A stretch of 64,000 bases of DNA from Candidatus Rokuibacteriota bacterium (GTDB taxonomy: Bacteria > Methylomirabilota > Methylomirabilia > Rokubacteriales > CSP1-6). Of this stretch, positions 33,523 through 34,627 are shown one piece after another. Numbering within the stretch: the stretch's first letter is position 1; every line of letters starts with the position of its first letter. Under the pieces are notes generated by a model that saw nothing but the letters and a program-made list of their open reading frames with translations, ran no database searches and was not told the origin of the DNA. The stretch covers positions 1-64,000 of the forward strand of contig JACPCW010000073.1 of the NCBI GenBank assembly GCA_016184365.1, in the 5' to 3' direction. The position numbers were made by a program, and so were the translations under genes.

Positions 33523-33918
33523 ATGGCCGACAGCAAAATGCTCGAGACGGGTCGTGACATGCGCCGCCGCCTGCTCGGCGACGCCTACGTCGACCGGGTC
33601 GCCGCGACGACCTACAACGACCCGCTCATGCGGAAGTTCATCGACCTCGCGAGCGAGACGGTGTTCGGCGCGCTGTGGACGCGGCCCGGCCTCGATCTCA
33701 AGACGCGCACGCTCGTCACCGTGATCTCCGACGCCTCGACGGGGCGCGAGCCGGAGCTGGCGATTCATCTCCGCATGGCGCGCCGTCAGGGCTGGACGGA
33801 GGACGAGCTGACCGAAGCGCTGCTGCACCTGCTCGGCTACGTCGGTGCGCCGCTCGTGCGGGACGCGATGCTCGTGGCGACGAAGGTGTTCGCCGAGATG
33901 CGAAACGAGAAATCCTGA
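33523..33918 (+). CDS. carboxymuconolactone decarboxylase family protein
   Basis: 131 residues from ATG 33523 with GGAGGA just upstream; the ORF extension to 33415 lies in the divergent gene. The all-helical CMD fold shows VFGALWTRPGLDLKTRTLVTV, LAIHLRMARRQGWTEDELTEALLHL and YVGAPLVRDAM. No AhpD-type CxxC is present, so it is a true gamma-carboxymuconolactone decarboxylase-like protein rather than a peroxidase. Its substrate is unknown. It opens the plus-strand operon that contains the MerB-like gene 7 bp downstream. Confidence 0.9.
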   Translation: MADSKMLETGRDMRRRLLGDAYVDRVAATTYNDPLMRKFIDLASETVFGALWTRPGLDLKTRTLVTVISDASTGREPELAIHLRMARRQGWTEDELTEALLHLLGYVGAPLVRDAMLVATKVFAEMRNEKS

Positions 33919-33925
33919 GGAGACG

Positions 33926-34627
33926 GTGCCGAGCGAGCTCGACCGCACCTATCACTTCATCATCACGTCGTGGGCGGAGCGCGGCGACCCGCCGCACTTC
34001 ACCGACATCGCGCGGGCGTTCGGCGTCTCGCCGGACGCGGGGCGGCGCCGGCTCCACGACCTGATGGCGGTCGGGCTCCCGAACTGGCTCTTCCCCGGGA
34101 CGGACCTCATCGCCTCGTTCGCGCCGTTCCATGCGCTTCCCAGCAGCTACCGCATCACGGTGGATGGCCGCACGGGGTGGTACGCGCAGTGCGGCTTCGA
34201 GTCGATCTCGGCGAGCTTCGCGTTTCCCGGCCGCACGATCGCCATCGAGACCACGTGTCTCGACTGCGGCGAGCCGCTGCGCATCGCGGTGCGCGAGGGG
34301 CAGATCGAGAGCGAAGATCCGCGCGGCATCGTCGGCTACGTCGACGTCCCCACGCGCGAGTGGCGCGCCAACCTGCCCTACACGTGAACGCGCATGAACC
34401 TCTTCCGGTCGGGAGACCACGCGCGCCGATGGAGCGGCTACACGCCGGCCACCGACGCCGGCATCGTCACGCTGGCGCAGCTCGCGTCGATCATGGGCAC
34501 GCCGCGCCATCGCGACCGCTACACGGGGCAGTACGTGTCGTCGTTTCCGGGCTACGGCGCCCCGTTCTTCGACAACCTGAAACGCGTCACGGCGAACGAT
34601 CCGTTCTGGGATCCCACGCCGCGTTGA
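33926..34627 (+). CDS. MerB-like (organomercurial lyase family) protein, probable selenoprotein with Sec at in-frame TGA 34385
   Basis: GTG start at 33926 after TGAGGAGA. Read through one TGA, it encodes 233 residues (MerB is 212). The N-terminal winged-helix part (DIARAFGVSPDAGRRRLHDL) is followed by the lyase core: WYAQCGFE matches MerB YAWCALD (Cys96; Asp99 is Glu here) and FPGRTIAIETTC matches the IGRTARVSSHC strand. Codon 154 is TGA, 64 residues after this Cys; in MerB, catalytic Cys159 lies 62 residues after Cys96. The sequence then continues in the same frame, TRMNLFRSGDHARRW, matching MerB CHVHFFASVPTAEDW position for position. An SECIS-like hairpin follows the TGA. The alternative is two genes (33926-34387 and 34394-34627), but the second has no ribosome site. 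MerB cleaves C-Hg bonds; the substrate here is unknown. Confidence 0.75.
34385..34425 (+). promoter_or_regulatory. putative bacterial SECIS element after the in-frame TGA
   Basis: TGA is at 34385-34387. A lower stem CGCGC (34389-34393) / GCGCG (34421-34425) begins one base later. The upper stem TCTTCC / GGGAGA (34401-34416) carries the four-base apical loop GGTC. E. coli fdhF SECIS also has a GGUC apical loop, 18 nt after its UGA; here the distance is 19 nt. SelB recognises this loop and a bulged U in the stem; U residues 5' of the loop could fill that role. The element lies inside the coding region, as required in bacteria. Confidence 0.65.

Follow-up and report, generated by a model that had tools for sequence, protein, structure and literature searches.

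The window analyzed here, a stretch of 64,000 nucleotides from a contig of a Candidatus Rokuibacteriota bacterium (GenBank assembly GCA_016184365.1, JACPCW010000073.1, positions 1 to 64,000 of the forward strand), contains a MerB-like gene with an in-frame UGA followed by a hairpin that we consider a very probable bacterial SECIS element. The gene extends from a GTG start at 33926, picked by homology, to a terminal TGA at 34625-34627, and its features are as follows.

33926..34627, + strand: MerB-like gene of a predicted selenoprotein, 233 residues with Sec154 (PF03243 read-through score; full-length identity to homologues 23-60%)
34190..34192, + strand: C89, equivalent of MerB Cys96, a UGA in the putative double-Sec relatives (PDB and homologue alignments)
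34199..34201, + strand: E92, at the place of MerB Asp99 (PDB and homologue alignments)
34256..34267, + strand: C111-x-x-C114, invariant in 24 homologues (alignments; of the two, only C111 has a cysteine counterpart in MerB)
34385-34387, + strand: in-frame UGA, read as Sec154 (PDB alignment to MerB Cys159; TGA in 21 of 21 subfamily members)
34389..34425, + strand: lower stem, CGCGC 34389-34393 with GCGCG 34421-34425, a poorly conserved trait of the window copy (63% of cells paired, 44 homologues)
34401..34416, + strand: upper stem-loop of the putative SECIS, UCUUCC-GGUC-GGGAGA (fold; 97% of cells paired, 44 homologues; highest synonymous conservation of the gene)
34407..34410, + strand: GGUC apical loop, 19 nt past the UGA (same loop and spacing in 53 of 61 UGA homologues; 18 nt in E. 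coli fdhF)

The MerB-like gene is immediately preceded by a carboxymuconolactone decarboxylase-like gene (PF02627) at 33523-33918, a pairing that is missing from the contexts of most relatives.

When the UGA is read through, the predicted protein scores 67.7 bits against PF03243 (gathering score 27 bits), as compared with 40.1 bits for the upstream piece alone and no match at all for the downstream piece. The AlphaFold model, built on a 24-sequence alignment, has a mean pLDDT of 92.7 and is continuous through the UGA, and its fold likewise points to this family, as the PDB structures matched by Foldseek at E 0.001 or better are eleven in number and all MerB (best E 1e-10), with TM-scores of 0.5-0.7 and an identity of about 18%. 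In the PDB alignment, residue 154, which corresponds to the UGA, falls at MerB Cys159 and C89 at MerB Cys96, these two cysteines being the mercury ligands of MerB (PMC4525700). At the places of the MerB catalytic set Cys96/Asp99/Cys159, the window protein would thus have Cys, Glu and Sec, respectively.

Under the standard code the ORF terminates at this UGA, and an in-frame AUG (Met157, 34394-34396) is found nine bases from the start of the UGA; the codon might accordingly be a true stop, either in a pseudogene or between two adjacent genes, the second possibly starting from this AUG. We regard this reading as very improbable. Homologues matching at E 1e-10 were found in 26 of the 95 genomes of the phylum, and the codon is TGA in 21 of the 21 full-length members of the window's subfamily tested, which come from two phyla, with three from Actinomycetota. 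Terminal stops vary among 34 homologues (25 TGA and 9 TAG). Moreover, both the frame and the domain run through the UGA, third codon positions vary most on both sides of it, and in the clade with the NFF peptide the AUG position is occupied by Ile or Leu codons (ATC, CTC), so that the start codon is unavailable there. One UGA homologue, L025 (G089:C81:3854-4543), has an extra in-frame TAG, which may reflect either decay of this copy or a misassembly. No relatives were found in viral contigs, and the plasmid search returned only one distant Cys MerB, in Rhodococcus.

Regarding the selenocysteine machinery, the genome encodes tRNA-Sec and SelB, a SelA-like ORF (recognised from its translation, not scored) adjoins selB, and SelD scores above its cut-off. 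The same genome apparently encodes two further selenoproteins, namely a formate dehydrogenase alpha subunit (L098, G000:C78:2702-5782; 1178 bits) with one in-frame TGA in ARIUHSATV, and a SelD whose gene (L127, G000:C2:114596-115540) has one internal TGA; evidence of this type thus indicates that UGA serves for Sec in other genes of the organism as well. In Actinomycetota, selB is present in 16 of 18 carriers of the UGA gene versus 228 of 397 genomes overall (hypergeometric p 0.004, relatedness ignored), and the carriers devoid of SelB, G340 (1.6 Mb) and G354 (1.8 Mb), have small genomes. Within the phylum of the window, SelB co-occurrence is hardly informative, since 83 of the 95 genomes have selB above cut-off, the phylum-level search being a repeat of the class-level one.

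An earlier note on this DNA had described, downstream of the UGA, a lower stem CGCGC/GCGCG starting 1 nt past the TGA and an upper stem UCUUCC/GGGAGA capped by GGUC, and both are present exactly where it placed them: UCUUCC (34401-34406) pairs with GGGAGA (34411-34416), and 19 nt separate the UGA from the GGUC loop. The UGA followed by 13 nt and UCUUCCGGUCGG occurs once in the window as an exact match, and an Rfam scan of the window returned no match at gathering score. The same note held the hairpin to be independent of protein homology, which proved too strong, since the folding statistics alone are unconvincing. The 46-nt fold has an MFE of -15.6 kcal/mol (z -1.2; 18 of 200 shuffles equally stable), the bare hairpin of 37 nt -14.5 (z -1.96; 6 of 200 shuffles) and the upper stem-loop alone -6.7, while the hairpin with its flanks (86 nt) gives a z of +0.8. 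Single-sequence stability, which exceeds that of shuffles only slightly (z -1.2 to -2.0), is weak evidence, and the case rests therefore on comparison.

Among 44 UGA homologues, 97% of the cells of the upper stem hold standard pairs, a share which falls to 48-63% when the stem is slid along the alignment. Covariation, which the earlier note had proposed as a check along with folding, turned out to be of little help: four of the seven pairs of the upper stem are invariant and only one has double changes, and since these pairs hardly vary, it is codon choice which must serve as the test. For the lower stem, pairing amounts to 63% of cells (slid versions, 30-46%), in excess of shuffles but far below the upper stem. 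Of the architecture initially described, the upper stem-loop is thus conserved, whereas the lower stem and the internal loop are poorly so, and only the former deserves the name of element. The window copy departs from the consensus by two codons, GGA-GAC instead of GAA-GAG, and despite these differences it keeps six pairs (one being U-G) and loses the outermost one.

Codons +5 to +10 past the UGA, which correspond to the upper stem-loop, surpass the rest of the gene in synonymous identity over 206 informative columns (synonymous excess 0.43; per-column mean 0.05, sd 0.13). The conserved peptide LFRSEE by itself favors a hairpin, and for most sequences about 2-17% of randomly drawn synonymous recodings are as stable as the actual one; the hairpin could hence be an idle by-product of this peptide, Sec being inserted through another signal. 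Yet codon choice is frozen at these positions (Leu CTC 20/20, CGG 20/21, Ser TCG 18/18, Glu +9 GAA 20/20), in opposition to the preference of the long ORFs of the window for GAG (125 GAG versus 36 GAA). In addition, Cys homologues carry other codons or other peptides, a distant UGA clade with a different peptide, NFFCTEE, forms a stem at the same spacing, and the position and the loop agree with E. coli fdhF. An idle by-product is thus, to our mind, very improbable, and a conserved signal for Sec insertion remains our preferred reading.

The note had named two kinds of sequences that would speak against such a signal, i.e., Sec homologues lacking the hairpin and Cys homologues keeping it, and neither was encountered. 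With stems of at least 5 pairs whose loop opens with two G being counted, the hairpin is found in 61 of the 61 UGA homologues tested, a set gathered by peptide patterns mostly including the FRSE-like stretch and from which L122, with another peptide, was left out. Its stem reaches -6 kcal/mol or better in 60 of them, and the loop follows the UGA by 19 nt in all but one, where the distance is 18 nt. By comparison, none of the 13 Cys homologues has a G-loop stem of -6 kcal/mol or better, and 10 are devoid of any such stem. The case of L046 is illustrative: this Cys homologue has the peptide NFFRSEDH, as do the UGA homologues L040 and L064, but with TCC-GAG for TCG-GAA, and the top of the stem is broken. 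In the tree, UGA clades enclose Cys copies at no fewer than two points: L037 and L046 (both Cys) are nested with L067 in a UGA clade (97/80) and L120 and L121 (both Cys) in another one (99/92), and all four are devoid of a comparable hairpin. These nested copies look like probable Sec-to-Cys conversions followed by SECIS decay, and the family would hence constitute a natural record of such a conversion with loss of the SECIS.

The model of bacterial SECIS elements (PMC13188914) sets a distance of 16-37 nt from the UGA to the apical loop, an upper stem of 4-16 bp and an MFE of at most -7.5. In the window, the distance is 19 nt and the stem, capped by GGUC, has 6 bp, with -14.5 for the 37-nt hairpin; the structure accompanies the UGA and disappears in Cys homologues (61/61 versus 0/13, in addition to the tree), and the host has SelA (from reading the ORF, not from a model score), SelB, tRNA-Sec and SelD. 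The likeness to fdhF pointed out in the note was borne out by the E. coli MG1655 sequence, in which GGUC lies 18 nt after the UGA at codon 140. Both genes have a GGUC apical loop 18-19 nt past the UGA and a short upper stem within the coding region; however, the stem sequence is different, the bulged U of the fdhF upper stem is absent here, and the comparison does not extend to the lower stem, which is unconserved among homologues of the window protein. Altogether, the conserved UGA, the conserved hairpin, its loss in Cys homologues, the machinery of the genome and the MerB fold predicted across the UGA strongly support the view that the hairpin is a bacterial SECIS directing Sec insertion at the UGA of a MerB-like mRNA, to which we assign a probability of roughly 0.94. 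From these comparisons we infer that SelB with Sec-tRNA(Sec) would bind the GGUC-capped upper stem-loop and deliver Sec at 34385-34387, leading to a selenoprotein of 233 residues and not to a fragment of 153 residues. Gene annotation ending at the UGA would truncate such genes at the catalytic residue.

Regarding the function of this protein, Sec154, in the place of MerB Cys159 and partnered by C89, might capture the metal and break the metal-carbon bond, as Cys159 and Cys96 do in MerB. The window protein shares with MerB its predicted fold, the equivalent of Cys96 and a Cys159 place that would be occupied by Sec; it differs from it by Sec itself, by an identity of about 18%, by Glu for Asp99 and Thr for Cys160, and by an extra invariant CxxC. 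It also differs from the MerB of mer operons (NF033555, NF009710), with 23-25 bits versus cut-offs of 193-200, and it has no conserved mer context. No conserved neighbors were found in 20 loci, whose neighbors were clustered and mostly had no one-by-one annotation. Glu at the Asp99 place, the low identity and these unconserved neighbors argue against a classical role in mercury resistance, and some other thiophilic metal compound may be what the enzyme acts on. The same observations, together with the extra invariant Cys114 and scores that fall short of the curated cut-offs for MerB and SaoL, fit with a protein in which Sec is correctly inserted but which is no organometal lyase, the MerB scaffold serving instead for metal binding, redox chemistry or some other enzymatic role. 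This is a quite conceivable alternative, to which we give somewhat less than an even chance; opposing it, Cys or Sec is retained at both mercury-ligand positions of MerB, and among solved structures the fold matches only MerB. In light of these ligands and of this fold, we lean slightly toward an organometal lyase.

A selenoprotein of this kind is already known: a 2026 review (PMC13188914) lists SaoL (NF040728, motif CU), a MerB-like organometallic lyase, and MerB is absent from the main text of PMC5029168, PMC2398784 and PMC12013277. Like SaoL, the window protein is related to MerB and would have Sec at or beside the place of Cys159; unlike it, it has Thr before Sec in lieu of the CU motif, and it scores 34.6 bits against the SaoL model, the cut-off of which is 140 and is passed by no genome of the phylum. 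As the SaoL model ends at the Sec position of the homologue L027, the two proteins would have their Sec at one common site or at neighboring ones. The window's subfamily appears to be a variant that falls outside the family as curated.

In L027 (1495-2193, - strand), whose source belongs to the same family as the genome of the window, and in nine Actinomycetota sequences (L105, L106, L107, L130-L134 and L140), a UGA is also found at the place of Cys96. Each of the two UGA codons has its own G-loop hairpin behind it. The one belonging to the Cys96 place comes about 17 nt later and is of GCUGGC type, its loop containing GU, and in relatives with Cys at that place (L135-L138) the sequence differs, as judged by eye, this second hairpin having been examined less thoroughly than the one of the Cys159 place. 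In these relatives, both catalytic thiols would seem to be selenols. Whether there are selenium-dependent organometal lyases apart from SaoL, with Sec for Cys159 and, in one group comprising some AAA+ ATPase-like fusions, Sec for both 96 and 159 forming an undescribed diselenolate metal-capture site, is in our opinion an evenly balanced question. Selenolates hold mercury tighter than thiolates, and for this reason Sec-containing MerB-like proteins, above all the double-Sec ones, would, if real, make the contribution of selenium to metal-carbon cleavage measurable. In L105, L106 (1486-3033) and L107, the double-UGA domain runs in frame into a long C-terminal part, which in L106 has a match to AAA (PF00004, E 1e-4).
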